Shown: positions 49,898 to 53,943 of the stretch, piece by piece
Layout: each line of letters opens with the position of its first letter
Position numbering within the stretch: position 1 is the first letter of the stretch
DNA from: Flavobacterium sediminis
GTDB lineage: Bacteria > Bacteroidota > Bacteroidia > Flavobacteriales > Flavobacteriaceae
Length of the DNA: 64,000 nt
Direction of reading: 5' to 3'
Assembly: GCF_003148385.1 (NCBI RefSeq)
Contig: NZ_CP029463.1
Coordinates: 2,914,001-2,978,000, forward strand
Position numbers and translations under genes: made by a program
The notes under the pieces: model-generated
Database searches by the model: none
Told to the model about the DNA's origin: nothing
The model's input: only the letters and a program-made list of their open reading frames with translations

Positions 49898-49960
49898 AAA
49901 ACTTTAACAAAATATACATTTTTTCTGTATCCAAGTTAACAACTTTAGGCGCTACCTTTG
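49898..49960 (+). promoter_or_regulatory. Repeat-borne promoter, copy 1: conserved box, 14-bp spacer, TACCTTTG
   Basis: A 36-bp box (49903-49938) contains the dyad ATACATTTTTTCTGTAT (ATACA-N7-TGTAT). Exactly 14 bp after its AGTTA end comes TACCTTTG (49953-49960), a TAnnTTTG -7 box. The same architecture recurs at 50076-50133 and 53756-53813. Confidence 0.65.
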
Positions 49961-49966
49961 TTTCAG

Positions 49967-50037
49967 GTTAATAGCAGTAATTTTATTTCTTATCAAGAAC
50001 ATTTAGTCCCGAAATCCTTTCGGGACTTTTTGTTTTT
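49967..50037 (+). ncRNA. Candidate small RNA, copy 1 (~71 nt)
   Basis: Predicted from a start ~7 nt after the -7 box to the T-tract of an intrinsic terminator. It has an unstructured 5' part (GTTAATAGCAG, CTTATCAAGAACATTT) and a 10-bp terminator stem AGTCCCGAAA / TTTCGGGACT (50005-50027) with TTTTTG-type tail. No ORF of any size. A near-identical copy lies at 53820-53890. It is not a tRNA, 6S or SRP RNA. Confidence 0.6.
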
Positions 50038-50075
50038 GTGGATTTTTTACGTCTCGTGGGGATAAAATATGAAAT

Positions 50076-50133
50076 TTTAACAAAATATACATTTTTTCTG
50101 TATCCGAGTTATAAGGACAATGCTATACATTTG
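50076..50133 (+). promoter_or_regulatory. Repeat-borne promoter, copy 2, driving the mosaic lipoprotein gene
   Basis: The 36-bp box (50076-50111) is identical to copy 3 and is again followed after 14 bp by a -7 box, TACATTTG (50126-50133). No sRNA follows. Instead there is a ~125-nt leader to ATG 50267 that keeps CTTATCAA and GTCCCGAAA (50197-50205) in the same order as the sRNA, but without the terminator's second arm. Confidence 0.6.
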
Positions 50134-50266
50134 ATCCCGATTCACTTATCAAAATTTTGTTTTCTTTCAGTGTGTAATCACCAGAAAGTATGACTTGTCC
50201 CGAAACGGATCATAAACCCTTTTCAGCCGTCGTATTGAAAAAAGAAAAGGTTATAATGTTTATTAA

Positions 50267-51865
50267 ATGAAATTAAAACGAAAGAAAAGGCTGCTCTTAG
50301 GTTTATCGGGGCTCTTAGTGCTGCTTTTAACCAACTGCGAAAAAGACTACCCGGAAGCAACGCTAAACAATAAGTTAACAACCTCCCGCTTTGACATTCG
50401 GGTTCTGAACAGTGAACAGATCCGGTCCAATGCTAAGGTTATGGACGAATTACAAAAGATTGCAGGGCAAACCAAAGCACAAGCCACCGGAACGGGAACA
50501 CCAATAGGTACTTCCCGAATCCTTTACAATTCAACCTACGGCTTTTCCGTAAACACCGCTTATGTGAAATACGTGGAAGATACCACAACGGGGAAACATT
50601 CCTATAACTTTCCGCTCACGCGGGACAGTTTGGTCACTTCCCATTTGGAAAACCTCTTGCTATCGTCACGTTCCGACGGGAGTTACGATGCGTATATCGT
50701 AGAATATGGTTTTTCAAAGGACGAATACAATGCTGTGTCTCAAACAACGCTGAACAACACAACGACCCGTTATTATCCGATAGATTTTGACACTTCGGTC
50801 TTTAACAGCGGCGAGTTAAACAAAATGGTGCTGGAATACAGTTGTGTAGAAATATGGTCATTGGAAGTCGTACCGGCCCACCAGGGCGATAACACAGGTG
50901 GCGAACTCTACACGGAAGAATGGGTATTGGTCTCCAACGAATGCACTTGGAATTACTACGATGACGAAACAGATGGCAGCGGCGGAAGTACCACAACAAC
51001 AACCGGAGTAGAGACCTCGGGCGGTGTAGGCGGTAGTGCCGGAGGTACAAGCACAACAGGAGATAGCTCTGATAGTGGCGACAATACAGATATAGGCGAT
51101 ACCTGCAAAGGTTGCGGCGACAGTGATATCATATCCAGCCCGGCAACAGAGCCGGCAGAAGAACCCGAAACGCCTTGCGACAGAATAAAAGCCGGAACAG
51201 GCAGTGCGGCATATAAACAAAAATTTAAAGCCTTAAATACACCGGAAAAGTTTAATTTAGACCATGAAACCGGTTTTTACGAACAGGAAATTAACGGGGT
51301 AAAACAGTATGTAGACGGAGTAGCTGATGGAAACCATACACTAAATATAGTGCAAGGTTCTTTAAATGCGACTCATGTGCATAATAACAAGCCAGAGACA
51401 GATACCGATGGTAACACTTTTGATGCCCAAATTAAAATGCTTTCTCCTAAAGATTTAGTCATGTTAATAACAACTATTAACAATTCCAATGGGACAACGC
51501 CAGAAAATGCTTTTGTAGTTATGGTTTCAAATGAAAGTATATTTGCTATTACTATTACTGAACCAATTGGTGTTTTAAGTGAAGAGACAAAAACTTTTTT
51601 AAGAGGTTGGAAAGAAGATTATGGCGATAAGGCAAAAGATATCTTAAGGGAATATTCTACAATAAGTGGTAGAAAAAAAGAACTTCAAAAACTGTTTTTA
51701 GGCGCTTTGAGAGACACTCAATTATATAATAAAATAGCTTTATTTGAAGGACAGGTGGAAAATGAAGATACTTCTGATATTAACAATTATACTATAGCAT
51801 GGACTCAAAAAACACTAAAAAATACTTTTTTTGGGCTAACAATAGAAGAAACACCATGCGATTAA
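50267..51865 (+). CDS. Mosaic modular lipoprotein of unknown function
   Basis: 532 residues. Lipoprotein signal (LLLGLSGLLVLLLTNCEKD). Residues about 25-225 form a unit with TTSRFDIRVLNSEQIRSNAK and repeated Y-x-Y strands. Residues about 225-300 are a low-complexity Gly/Ser/Thr/Asp linker with a CKGCGD pair. Residues about 303-532 are a separate domain with FNLDHETGFYEQEINGVKQY, ATHVHNNKPETD and MLSPKDLVMLI. Codon use changes from GC-rich (bases 50300-51180) to AT-rich after about 51200. This is the layout of a polymorphic protein with an exchangeable C-terminal module. The HxH...SPxD pattern faintly recalls JAB-type hydrolases, but the spacing is too long to call it. Confidence 0.7.
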   Translation: MKLKRKKRLLLGLSGLLVLLLTNCEKDYPEATLNNKLTTSRFDIRVLNSEQIRSNAKVMDELQKIAGQTKAQATGTGTPIGTSRILYNSTYGFSVNTAYVKYVEDTTTGKHSYNFPLTRDSLVTSHLENLLLSSRSDGSYDAYIVEYGFSKDEYNAVSQTTLNNTTTRYYPIDFDTSVFNSGELNKMVLEYSCVEIWSLEVVPAHQGDNTGGELYTEEWVLVSNECTWNYYDDETDGSGGSTTTTTGVETSGGVGGSAGGTSTTGDSSDSGDNTDIGDTCKGCGDSDIISSPATEPAEEPETPCDRIKAGTGSAAYKQKFKALNTPEKFNLDHETGFYEQEINGVKQYVDGVADGNHTLNIVQGSLNATHVHNNKPETDTDGNTFDAQIKMLSPKDLVMLITTINNSNGTTPENAFVVMVSNESIFAITITEPIGVLSEETKTFLRGWKEDYGDKAKDILREYSTISGRKKELQKLFLGALRDTQLYNKIALFEGQVENEDTSDINNYTIAWTQKTLKNTFFGLTIEETPCD

Positions 51866-51877
51866 AACATAATAATT

Positions 51878-52462
51878 ATGAAAACACTATTTAAAATCCT
51901 CACTTTACTATTAATTAGTTTGAATGTACAGTGTCAGACAGTAACTACTGTTGTCCCTTATAGAACATTAGATTACCCCAACGGTGCTTATTTAAAAGAT
52001 TTGGACAACGAATTTCCGTTTTGGTTGGGAACATGGGAAGGAACAGCCGATAATAAAAAGTATACTTTTACTTTTGTATTATTTCAAAAGCATTTAAGAA
52101 CAGTTCCAAGTGGTAGATACGAGTTTAAAGACAAAGTTGTAGGTAAGCTAAAAGTAACCGACTTAGCTACAAATCAAGTGATTTATGATGAATCTTCTTT
52201 TGCTAATTTTGATGATTATATTATAAAAGGGAATGTAATATATGGAAGGGAGTTCTATTTTGGTTTTTATGATAAAGAGAACCATTGCAACAATAGTGCT
52301 GACTTTACTTTAGTAAGATATGATAATAACCCTAACCAGATACTCTATAAGAACTTTAGTTATGGAGAGTATTTTACATTGGACGGACCATGTCCTTACA
52401 ATGACCAGTTAGATATTCCTATGTTTTTACCTAAAGTAGATCTGATGTTGACGCGACAATAA
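51878..52462 (+). CDS. Secreted DUF6705-like protein, paralogue 1 of 3
   Basis: 194 residues with signal peptide ending LNVQCQ. The body has GAYLKDLDNEFPFWLGTWEGTADNKKYTFTFVLFQKHL, then a variable middle, and ends DQLDIPMFLPKVDLMLTRQ. Layout and ending resemble the flavobacterial DUF6705 family (from memory, unverified). Starts 12 bp after the mosaic lipoprotein. Its first ~60 bp and last ~70 bp are nearly identical in DNA to paralogue 3. Function unknown; an accessory or immunity-like role to the upstream module is only a guess. Confidence 0.75.
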   Translation: MKTLFKILTLLLISLNVQCQTVTTVVPYRTLDYPNGAYLKDLDNEFPFWLGTWEGTADNKKYTFTFVLFQKHLRTVPSGRYEFKDKVVGKLKVTDLATNQVIYDESSFANFDDYIIKGNVIYGREFYFGFYDKENHCNNSADFTLVRYDNNPNQILYKNFSYGEYFTLDGPCPYNDQLDIPMFLPKVDLMLTRQ

Positions 52463-52504
52463 TTTTTAGGATTAAAGATTTGGTTTTGTAAGGAAAATAG
52501 CGAT

Positions 52505-53089
52505 ATGAAAACACTATTAAATATTCTCTGCCTGTTATTAATTAGTATAAATGTAAATTGTCAGGTTACTCAAATACTACCTTTAAATGGAGGAGAGATG
52601 AGCTACGGCTCTTATAGAAAAGACTTAAATAATGAGCTGCCATTCTGGGTGGGTACATGGGAAGGAGTCTCTAATGGTAAAAAATACGTTTTTGAATTCA
52701 CGTTTTTTCAACAACACTTAAGTCAATATGACATAGATAAATATTATTATTATGATGAAATAAAAGGGAAATTTAAAGTAATAGATTTAAACACGAATGC
52801 TATTTTATATAATGGTCTTAATGCTACAGTTTATGATGATTACACAATAACTAATCTTGTTCTTAGGGGCAATAGTTTATTGTTACTCTTTCAAGACGGC
52901 GAGATCAATTGTTGCAATACAGCTGAGTTTTATCTGATCAAAGACAGTAACAGTCCTGACCAAATTATGTATAAAGATTTTAGCTATGGAGAATATGGTT
53001 GTTTATCTAACAATCCATGCCTTTACAATGACCAGTTAGATATTCCCATGTTTTTGCCGACTCAAGATTTTGTATTAACAAGACAGTAA
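52505..53089 (+). CDS. Secreted DUF6705-like protein, paralogue 2 of 3
   Basis: 194 residues, same length as paralogue 1. Signal peptide ends INVNCQ. It keeps YRKDLNNELPFWVGTWEGVSNGKKYVFEFTFFQQHLS and the ending YNDQLDIPMFLPTQDFVLTRQ, while the middle (residues about 75-150) is clearly diverged. The terminal blocks are also more diverged in DNA than between copies 1 and 3. Preceded by a 42-bp gap and followed by a strong hairpin at 53094-53129. Confidence 0.75.
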   Translation: MKTLLNILCLLLISINVNCQVTQILPLNGGEMSYGSYRKDLNNELPFWVGTWEGVSNGKKYVFEFTFFQQHLSQYDIDKYYYYDEIKGKFKVIDLNTNAILYNGLNATVYDDYTITNLVLRGNSLLLLFQDGEINCCNTAEFYLIKDSNSPDQIMYKDFSYGEYGCLSNNPCLYNDQLDIPMFLPTQDFVLTRQ

Positions 53090-53093
53090 TTAG

Positions 53094-53129
53094 AACGTTG
53101 GTTTTGAGGATTAATTCAAAACCAACGTT
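53094..53129 (+). other. Perfect 14-bp hairpin inside the DUF6705-like operon
   Basis: AACGTTGGTTTTGA / TCAAAACCAACGTT with an 8-nt loop (GGATTAAT), right after the paralogue 2 stop and 14 bp before the paralogue 3 ATG. There is no T-tract after it on the plus strand, so it is not a classical terminator. It could stabilise or partition the transcript, or limit translation of paralogue 3. Confidence 0.6.
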
Positions 53130-53142
53130 TAAAAAAGTAAAG

Positions 53143-53712
53143 ATGAAAATACTATTTAAAATCCTCGCTTTACTATTAATTAGTTTGAATGTACAGTGTC
53201 AGGTCTTACCATTATATACTCCAAGTTTTGAACGAACTAATGGAGCATACTTAAAAGATTTAGATGATGTCCAGTCTTTTTTGGAAGGGACGTGGATAGG
53301 TATAATTAATGATAAAGAATACACCTTTCAGTTTGTTAAATTACCCCACCATTTAATTTCTTATGGGGATGTTAATTATTATGAAGATATACTTAAAGTT
53401 AAATTTAAAGTAGTAGATTTAGTTGCGAATCAATTGATATATAGTGATTTGCAGGTTGTTGATTTTGATGATTATAAGATAAATTTATCATATTATGGTA
53501 ATAATATTGGGTATTCTTTTTATTATGAAGATGAAATGAATTGTAGTAATTCTGCTAAATTCTATATTTATAGAATTGATAATAATACAGATCAAATAGA
53601 ATATAAAAACTTTATTTATGATGAATATTGGGATTGGGATTGTTCCTATACCGACCAGTTAGATATTCCCATGTTTTTACCTAAAGTAGATCTGATGTTG
53701 ACGCGACAATAG
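53143..53712 (+). CDS. Secreted DUF6705-like protein, paralogue 3 of 3
   Basis: 189 residues from ATG 53143; the longer frame from 53098 runs through the hairpin and adds no signal-like sequence. Signal peptide ends LNVQCQ, as in paralogue 1. The body has NGAYLKDLDDVQSFLEGTWIGIINDKEYTFQFVK, a divergent Tyr/Asn-rich middle, and the ending DQLDIPMFLPKVDLMLTRQ identical to paralogue 1. Last gene before the right-hand repeat. Confidence 0.75.
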   Translation: MKILFKILALLLISLNVQCQVLPLYTPSFERTNGAYLKDLDDVQSFLEGTWIGIINDKEYTFQFVKLPHHLISYGDVNYYEDILKVKFKVVDLVANQLIYSDLQVVDFDDYKINLSYYGNNIGYSFYYEDEMNCSNSAKFYIYRIDNNTDQIEYKNFIYDEYWDWDCSYTDQLDIPMFLPKVDLMLTRQ

Positions 53713-53750
53713 TTTTTAGGATTAAAAACAGAATAAAGGAAAAACTTCTA

Positions 53751-53813
53751 AAAACTTTAACAAAATATACATTTTTTCTGTATCCGAGTTAGGTTTAGTC
53801 TGCCGTATATTTG
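53751..53813 (+). promoter_or_regulatory. Repeat-borne promoter, copy 3: conserved box, 14-bp spacer, TATATTTG
   Basis: The 36-bp box (53756-53791) with the ATACA-N7-TGTAT dyad (53767-53783) is followed, 14 bp later, by TATATTTG (53806-53813). The spacer sequence differs from copies 1 and 2, but its length does not. Confidence 0.65.
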
Positions 53814-53819
53814 TGATGG

Positions 53820-53890
53820 TTAATAGCAGTAATTTTTATTTCTTATCAAGAACATCTAGTCCCGAAATCCTTTCGGGACTTTTTGTTTTT
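53820..53890 (+). ncRNA. Candidate small RNA, copy 2 (~71 nt)
   Basis: Differs from copy 1 by one extra T in a T run and one C/T change, with the same terminator stem (53858-53880) and T-rich tail. It lies 107 bp after the last secreted paralogue. The hairpin alone could serve as that operon's terminator, but the intervening promoter-like module argues for an independent transcript. Confidence 0.6.
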
Positions 53891-53943
53891 GTCGATTTCG
53901 TTCTCCAAAAAGAGTGTATTATAAAACATAGATAGCCAAAAGC

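Follow-up and report, generated by a model that had tools for sequence, protein, structure and literature searches.

The Qrr RNAs of Vibrio are quorum-sensing small RNAs (sRNAs) placed under the response regulator LuxO, which is sigma-54 dependent. FimS/FimR of Porphyromonas gingivalis combines a kinase containing tetratricopeptide repeats (TPR) with a LuxR-type regulator, and we know of no sRNA array belonging to it. Two-component systems also control redundant sRNAs in GacA-RsmY/RsmZ and LisRK-LhrC, according to the available parts of their descriptions (PMC2375449, PMC4132741). The FopS sRNAs of Bacteroidaceae occur in 12-15 paralogous copies per genome, and the accessible text of that study calls the regulator of their transcription unknown (PMC11697453). 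Few studies appear to have explored small-RNA regulation in Flavobacterium: the only sRNA we met whose role has been tested is Rfp18 of F. psychrophilum, which the available portion of its report presents as a conserved Flavobacterium sRNA, strongly structured and predicted to pair through its third stem-loop (PMC9723704). Here we analyze 64,000 nucleotides of the Flavobacterium sediminis genome (the window, meaning this whole stretch), in which a 36-bp box stands before two near-identical sRNA units and a lipoprotein operon.

We consider it probable that a NarL/RcsB-type response regulator encoded elsewhere in this genome binds the box and drives a multicopy sRNA family, lipoprotein operons and the kinase-regulator locus. 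Like LuxO-Qrr, the arrangement comprises a number of near-identical sRNA genes that each have a separate promoter, a common upstream element and one response regulator, together with a phosphorelay that would sense signals made by the cell. It differs in its NarL/RcsB-type regulator, its sigma-A TAnnTTTG -7 boxes, its tandem arrays, the RNA itself and the propeptide genes adjoining the kinase. Judged by analogy, the circuit would work like LuxO-Qrr, and it is not a member of that system because it has no sigma-54 promoter and an unrelated regulator. With FimS/FimR it shares a TPR-containing kinase and a LuxR-type regulator in Bacteroidota; the kinase is not FimS, since it scores 41.4 against the FimS NCBIfam model, for which the cut-off is 600.

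The FopS RNAs, as far as the accessible text describes them, are likewise multicopy RNAs of Bacteroidota with a conserved single-stranded 5' seed, a terminator hairpin behind it and sigma-A type promoters; that text mentions no tandem arrays, which are found here, and many of the present copies have an extra middle hairpin (PMC11697453). No family named FopS was among the Rfam matches at E up to 10, although the presence of FopS in that Rfam copy was not checked. GacA-RsmY/RsmZ and LisRK-LhrC belong to other organisms and regulators, and the available parts of their descriptions do not mention propeptide genes (PMC2375449, PMC4132741). Rfp18 is also a conserved sRNA of the genus; its description, so far as available, sets it apart from the RNA here, which is ~72 nt long, has one or two stems and occurs in many copies. 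None of the 102 stretches found in an exact seed scan came from F. psychrophilum or F. columnare, whose presence in the searched set was not checked. In the open-licence PMC literature we found no description of this RNA or circuit and no described peptide-signalling circuit in the Flavobacterium group.

The box occurs three times in the window; copies 2 and 3 are identical and copy 1 is one base off. A 14-bp spacer follows each, and then a -7 element. Boxes 1 and 3 lead into near-identical ~72-nt units that are one indel and one substitution apart and share identical terminator hairpins, and box 2 heads a lipoprotein operon whose first gene starts at 50267. A reading of the DNA from its letters and open reading frames (ORFs) alone, hereafter the sequence-only reading, had described these boxes, spacers, TAnnTTTG elements and downstream units, and its account of the boxes, spacers and -7 elements proved exact. 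The elements are:

49903..49938, + strand: regulatory box, copy 1 (pattern scan, shuffle control)
49953..49960, + strand: -7 element TACCTTTG of sRNA 1 (spacing measurement)
49966..50037, + strand: sRNA 1, predicted 5' end 49965/49966, conserved 5' stretch 49966-49984 (covariance model 80.5 bits, E 2.1e-12)
50005..50027, + strand: intrinsic terminator hairpin of sRNA 1 (hairpin prediction, covarying stem)
50076..50111, + strand: regulatory box, copy 2, of the lipoprotein operon (pattern scan)
50126..50133, + strand: -7 element TACATTTG of the lipoprotein operon (spacing measurement)
53756..53791, + strand: regulatory box, copy 3 (pattern scan)
53806..53813, + strand: -7 element TATATTTG of sRNA 2 (spacing measurement)
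53818..53890, + strand: sRNA 2 (covariance model 74.3 bits, E 3.6e-11)
53858..53880, + strand: intrinsic terminator hairpin of sRNA 2 (hairpin prediction, covarying stem)

Shuffling the window 100 times never produced the 26-bp core of the box. Across the genome, a single contig of 3.44 Mb, the core occurs 14 times at up to three mismatches, and a reversed control pattern gave 0 matches. All 14 copies stand exactly 14 bp from their -7 elements, which comprise 13 TAnnTTTG sequences and one TAACTTTA. The sequence-only reading had named a box repeated without -7 elements at fixed spacing, a plain dispersed repeat, as an outcome that would overturn it; this is ruled out because every copy keeps the 14-bp gap. 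Nine boxes head an RNA unit, four head lipoprotein operons and each follow an RNA-unit box at a distance of 171-173 bp, and the 14th lies just behind a NarL/RcsB-type response-regulator gene, between it and a gene for a 75-amino-acid membrane protein. Outside this list, an extra box (L035:12808) scores 20.8 on the weight matrix introduced below; it stands 14 bp from TATATTTG, upstream of a 133-amino-acid gene of the same genome that probably encodes a secreted protein.

The two RNAs that the sequence-only reading took for a pair of twins are both real family members, but they are only two of ten copies in the genome, nine of which have the box promoter. Whole-unit similarity gave matches in 15 of 150 genus genomes, several of them to the terminator only. 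Further copies were sought by seed pattern in 398 genus genomes and in named genomes, yielding 53 distinct RNA copies from 12 Flavobacterium genomes. A seed with at most two mismatches and a -7 element were required; box and terminator were no criteria, and one NRK F7 copy with masked bases was left out. Each RNA is laid out as a conserved 5' end, predicted to be single-stranded, followed by the terminator hairpin. Two subtypes start GGTTAATAG and AGTTAATAG and have different middles; type-B copies have a predicted second hairpin, and an extra middle hairpin is predicted in many copies.

Alignment A2 of the RNA takes in 31 of the 39 type-A rows and, in addition, the second copy from the window, with three rows trimmed at the 3' end. 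In the terminator stem, 93.7% of cells are paired, against 78.4% in shuffles, and none of 500 shuffles reached as high. Both sides have changed in seven of the eight pairs, and slid controls are far lower. The RNA is a real, covarying family whose copies have promoters of their own. The TAnnTTTG element of F. psychrophilum promoters extends from -12 to -5, according to the available part of that study (PMC9723704). Counting its last G as -5 places the start of the window RNAs at most one base from a conserved RGTTAATAGCAG block, and the distance from the -7 element to this block is equal in 41 of the 53 copies and one base longer in 12.

Genomes other than our own are given by handle: G061 (NRK F7), G277 (F. 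profundi), G314 (9AF), G257 (a metagenome-assembled genome (MAG) of F. haoranii), G122 (MY14.004), G134 (bin08) and G149 (RU_4_13), besides those with a handle only. Between an M23-peptidase gene and mfd, flanks whose domains were checked for L035 only, stand tandem arrays of 7 (F. profundi), 6 (9AF), 3+3 (J27) and 4 (G387) units, and every unit has its own promoter and terminator. The six units counted in F. jejuense are spread over two contigs, and two of them, at contig ends, may be a single unit. L035 is the M23-peptidase-mfd locus of our own genome, and there a lipoprotein cassette lies within the array; the RNAs of G122, G134 and G257 sit outside this position. In G231 (L195), a ribosomal RNA (rRNA) operon with two transfer RNAs (tRNAs) lies between sRNA copies in the M23-peptidase to mfd interval. 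Comparing L031, L032 and L034 with L193 and L194 of the F. haoranii MAG, we found neighborhoods joined differently at sRNA copies, involving hemB, dprA and an M13-peptidase, so the repeats may be points of rearrangement.

A covariance-model search across Flavobacteriaceae, as the sequence-only reading had proposed, gave clear matches (E <=1e-5) in 10 of 398 genus genomes, our own included, but in none of 397 family genomes except our own. A family-wide RNA is therefore not supported. At E <=0.01, matches occur in 72 of the 398 and 47 of the 397 genomes; the best E outside the ten clear genomes is 7.2e-5 in the genus and 8.1e-5 in the family (30-43 bits). These weaker matches, which were not inspected singly, look like unrelated terminators or background, and the search filters can lose weak true matches. 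In line with the sequence-only reading, which knew of no such RNA family, no Rfam family reached its gathering score in the window; five array loci gave rRNA and tRNA only, and nothing convincing for the RNA appeared at E up to 10. Spread by phage or plasmid was considered and set aside, as the unit had no match in either the phage or the plasmid collection.

Over the 53 promoters, collected independently of the box, the box consensus is about TTTAACAARAAnGGCARAAATnTTGTATCCAAsTTAACAAA, and most of its positions are conserved from about -60 to -22. A species-weighted matrix was built from 47 of these 53 RNA promoters, some of which agree with it badly (lowest -26.6). This matrix, for which RNA promoters were the sole training set, was run on loci of the regulator found beside the 14th box. 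Scores of 35.0-37.5 lie directly behind the regulator gene in our own genome, G257, G122 and G134. In G277, G061, G314, G387 and G231 the box scores 23.8-25.4 and stands where the propeptide-kinase-regulator operon begins. The propeptide array of G149, whose regulator is on another contig, scores 20.5. The regulator loci of G067 and G023, both without a clear RNA, score 20.1, and weaker boxes (10.3-19.5) occur at those of G032, G098, G038, G095 and G133. A box above 9 thus occurs at 17 of the 39 best-scoring regulator loci scanned, including all ten genomes with clear RNAs; boxes measured there have a 13-14-bp gap to the -7 element. The scan covered a wider stretch at 33 loci, some ending at contig ends, and 1.5 kb on each side at the other six, which all fall among the loci with no box above 9. 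In 286 kb of other sequence, three matches exceeded 9: 9.0, 10.8 (own kinase locus) and 20.8 (before another own gene). Among 74 control loci, weaker regulator-match loci included, the top score of 13.6 equals that of the G133 regulator locus, which L366 overlaps, and the next is 7.3.

The regulator locus lies 1.54 Mb from the window in the same genome, where the gene adjoins a TPR histidine kinase and a small lipoprotein-like propeptide. The regulator has a Response_reg match and resembles RcsB over residues 6-214 of 225; it has no separate GerE match in Pfam. The kinase has TPR, HisKA_3 and HATPase domains. A receiver and, by similarity to RcsB, a LuxR-type DNA-binding domain are thus those of a NarL/RcsB-type regulator adjoining a HisKA_3 kinase.

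Between one and seven propeptide genes lie upstream of the TPR histidine kinase in all nine loci read upstream, a set that leaves out G257. Tandem copies number seven in G277, six in G061, four each in G314 and G387, five in G231 and three in G149. In these six they end in TDPIIIPKKD, TDPVIIPKKD, TDPIVKPKKD or TDPIVKPKRD, apart from one differing G149 copy; the single propeptide of our own genome ends in TNPIVTLPKKD, and those of G122 and G134, one each, have less similar ends in KKD. The arrangement and the conserved C-termini suggest a peptide signal made by the cell. Two propeptides were scanned against NCBIfam and reached no cut-off. More distant regulator loci have other propeptides, some repeat-built, and the propeptide filter found none at several of them. 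The repeat-built propeptides EIGGQVVTRPVA, IGGNGGNETRKA and EIGGQESRGSRRIV, at TPR-kinase/regulator loci of other genus members (L376, L419, L425), resemble repeat pheromone precursors. At L371-L375 and L386, the propeptide-operon promoter contains an inverted repeat, AACACCTTATTTTTG with its complement, overlapping the -7 element, so that the opposite strand has a -7-like sequence facing a neighboring phosphatase-like gene.

The operator takes different forms among these genomes. The core at the regulator locus is TACATTTTTTCTGTA in our own genome and G257, TACAGAAAATCTGTA in G122 and G134, and of a GGCA form in six others, and it resembles the RNA promoters of the same genome, with a mean distance of 3.5 within and 6.9 between genomes. 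The ATACA-N7-TGTAT dyad noted in the window by the sequence-only reading is present there but is not the general form in relatives: a strict dyad occurs in part of the clade, and several TACA-type genomes have complementary arms, which GGCA-type genomes mostly lack. In the predicted DNA-binding region, the regulators of our own genome, G122 and G134 read GISA and all six GGCA-type regulators read AQSS (G257 is outside this alignment).

The observed sequence elements, their spacing, conservation and covariation and their genomic linkage would fit together as follows. A peptide made by the cell may be sensed by the TPR histidine kinase, which would activate the response regulator. The regulator would bind the box as its operator and turn on sigma-A promoters at fixed spacing. 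Nine of the ten copies of a ~72-nt sRNA, presumably trans-acting, would thereby be expressed, as would four polymorphic-toxin-like lipoprotein operons (one in the window) and genes of the kinase-regulator locus. The conserved single-stranded 5' end is the presumed pairing seed, with the terminator hairpin free to vary. Binding of the box, activation, peptide sensing and base pairing of RNA with mRNA are thus predicted from sequence. The proposal of the sequence-only reading that one regulator controls the sRNAs and the lipoprotein operon gains support from the covarying RNA family, the conserved box and the two-component regulator locus.

A bolder version, which we hold tentatively and rate below the regulator-box assignment, is a peptide quorum-sensing system of Bacteroidota in which a propeptide signal would act through TPR kinase and regulator on Qrr-like sRNA arrays and competition genes, operator and regulator having changed together between clades. 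The competition genes would be polymorphic-toxin lipoproteins and clusters for ribosomally synthesized and post-translationally modified peptides (RiPP), an assignment we make just as tentatively. If true, signal, kinase, operator, tandem sRNA array and competition genes would be linked in one circuit, with a natural set of species differing in operator form. The covariance model and the operator matrix would also predict regulon members in other Flavobacterium genomes.

Several observations weigh against control of the RNAs by this regulator or against a pairing role for their 5' ends. The tenth RNA body of our own genome has no box and a different promoter. The 39 regulator loci were the best-scoring matches and no random draw, and 22 of them lack a box above 9; G012 has a 66% identical regulator in the same gene neighborhood and no box, and the box at our own propeptide gene is weak (12.2). 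Regulator homologues occur in 107 of 121 genus genomes, so that their co-occurrence with the RNA is not specific. The permutation value for within- versus between-genome operator distance (0.00025) ignores phylogeny, and the genomes amount to three clades. The GGCA clade has lost the dyad, and some regulators with TACA-like boxes have other residues at the GISA position (TLSA in G067 and G032, SMSS in G098), so the coupling of operator and regulator goes no further than the level of clades. Conservation of the 5' seed was partly imposed because the copies were gathered with seed patterns, and the same holds for the -7 element. Searches for the seed complement, over the genome, 133 start regions and eight kinase operons, gave nothing convincing and stayed at or near control: the genome has 16 one-mismatch matches against 9 for the reversed control, the best start-region match of 133 ORFs from our own loci beat shuffled seeds yet lies inside a coding region, and one of eight genomes beat all its ten shuffles in the kinase operon. 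Separately, a near-complement of the seed lies 42 nt upstream of a start codon in L210.

The chief competitor of regulator control is that the box serves a different global regulator, or acts as an upstream promoter element, the kinase-regulator locus being merely one more target. We regard this as unlikely, though it deserves more weight than the other alternatives. It would account for the 22 of 39 regulator loci without a box, and for boxes before RiPP-type precursor clusters (G231, G387), surface proteins (G061, G277) and the own gene at L035:12808 (20.8). Against it, the box recurs at one regulator locus in different lineages, sited in some behind the regulator and in others at the start of the operon, and its form there follows its form at the RNAs.

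The remaining alternatives concern the RNA. The unit might be mainly a promoter-terminator repeat spreading by recombination, with transcription mattering and the RNA product not; the units of our own genome are near-identical and lie where neighborhoods differ from the F. haoranii MAG, and an rRNA operon stands between copies in G231. This is improbable in view of a 5' end that, between start and terminator, stays conserved in arrays with diverged terminators and linkers, a covarying terminator, distinct conserved middles kept by both subtypes and an array position common to several species. That the unit encodes a very short protein is the least credible alternative and can hardly be entertained: several copies read ATGGTTAATAGC, with an ATG at the 5' end, yet a start codon is missing from that place in others, and near-identical copies differ in reading frame because their lengths differ by single bases.

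Under control by the NarL/RcsB-type regulator, the box would also mark a wider regulon. In six whole genomes, the box pattern gave 50 matches against one for the reversed pattern; sorted by hand, they comprise 26 at RNA arrays, nine at the kinase-regulator locus and 15 at other places. A few of these 15 stand before RiPP-type precursor clusters (G231, G387) or surface proteins (G061, G277), types assigned by eye. The other outputs of the box in our own genome are four mosaic lipoprotein cassettes (the window, L030, L034 and L035), which have an N-terminal carrier in common, C-termini that differ and DUF6705-type genes behind them. The sRNAs do bracket the lipoprotein cluster in the window, as the sequence-only reading had it, but this reflects a cassette placed within RNA repeats or beside them; behind the L030 cassette, no trailing RNA copy was found. 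The window cassette comprises:

50267..51865, + strand: mosaic lipoprotein with a shared N-terminal carrier and a variable C-terminus, polymorphic-toxin-like (ORF, cassette comparison, domain scan)
51878..52462, + strand: DUF6705-like protein, possible immunity protein (22.3 bits, below the Pfam cut-off of 24.4)
52505..53089, + strand: DUF6705 protein, possible immunity protein (26.9 bits, above the Pfam cut-off)
53143..53712, + strand: protein paralogous to those of both genes before it, with an assumed start codon (itself unmatched in Pfam)

Five of six cassette pairs are 91-96% identical over the first ~1.2 kb, beyond which only the RNA repeats are similar; the cassettes of the window and L035 can be aligned over their full length at about 84%. 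The C-terminus of the window lipoprotein has no Pfam domain. Ten lipoprotein relatives were scanned, of which one has a C-terminal Tae4 domain and one a sub-threshold AHH nuclease domain. Given the shared carrier, the differing C-termini, the Tae4 and AHH relatives and the DUF6705-type genes, the cassette resembles a polymorphic toxin accompanied by candidate immunity genes. The L034 lipoprotein is split into two reading frames, and an unsplit relative exists (P0004).

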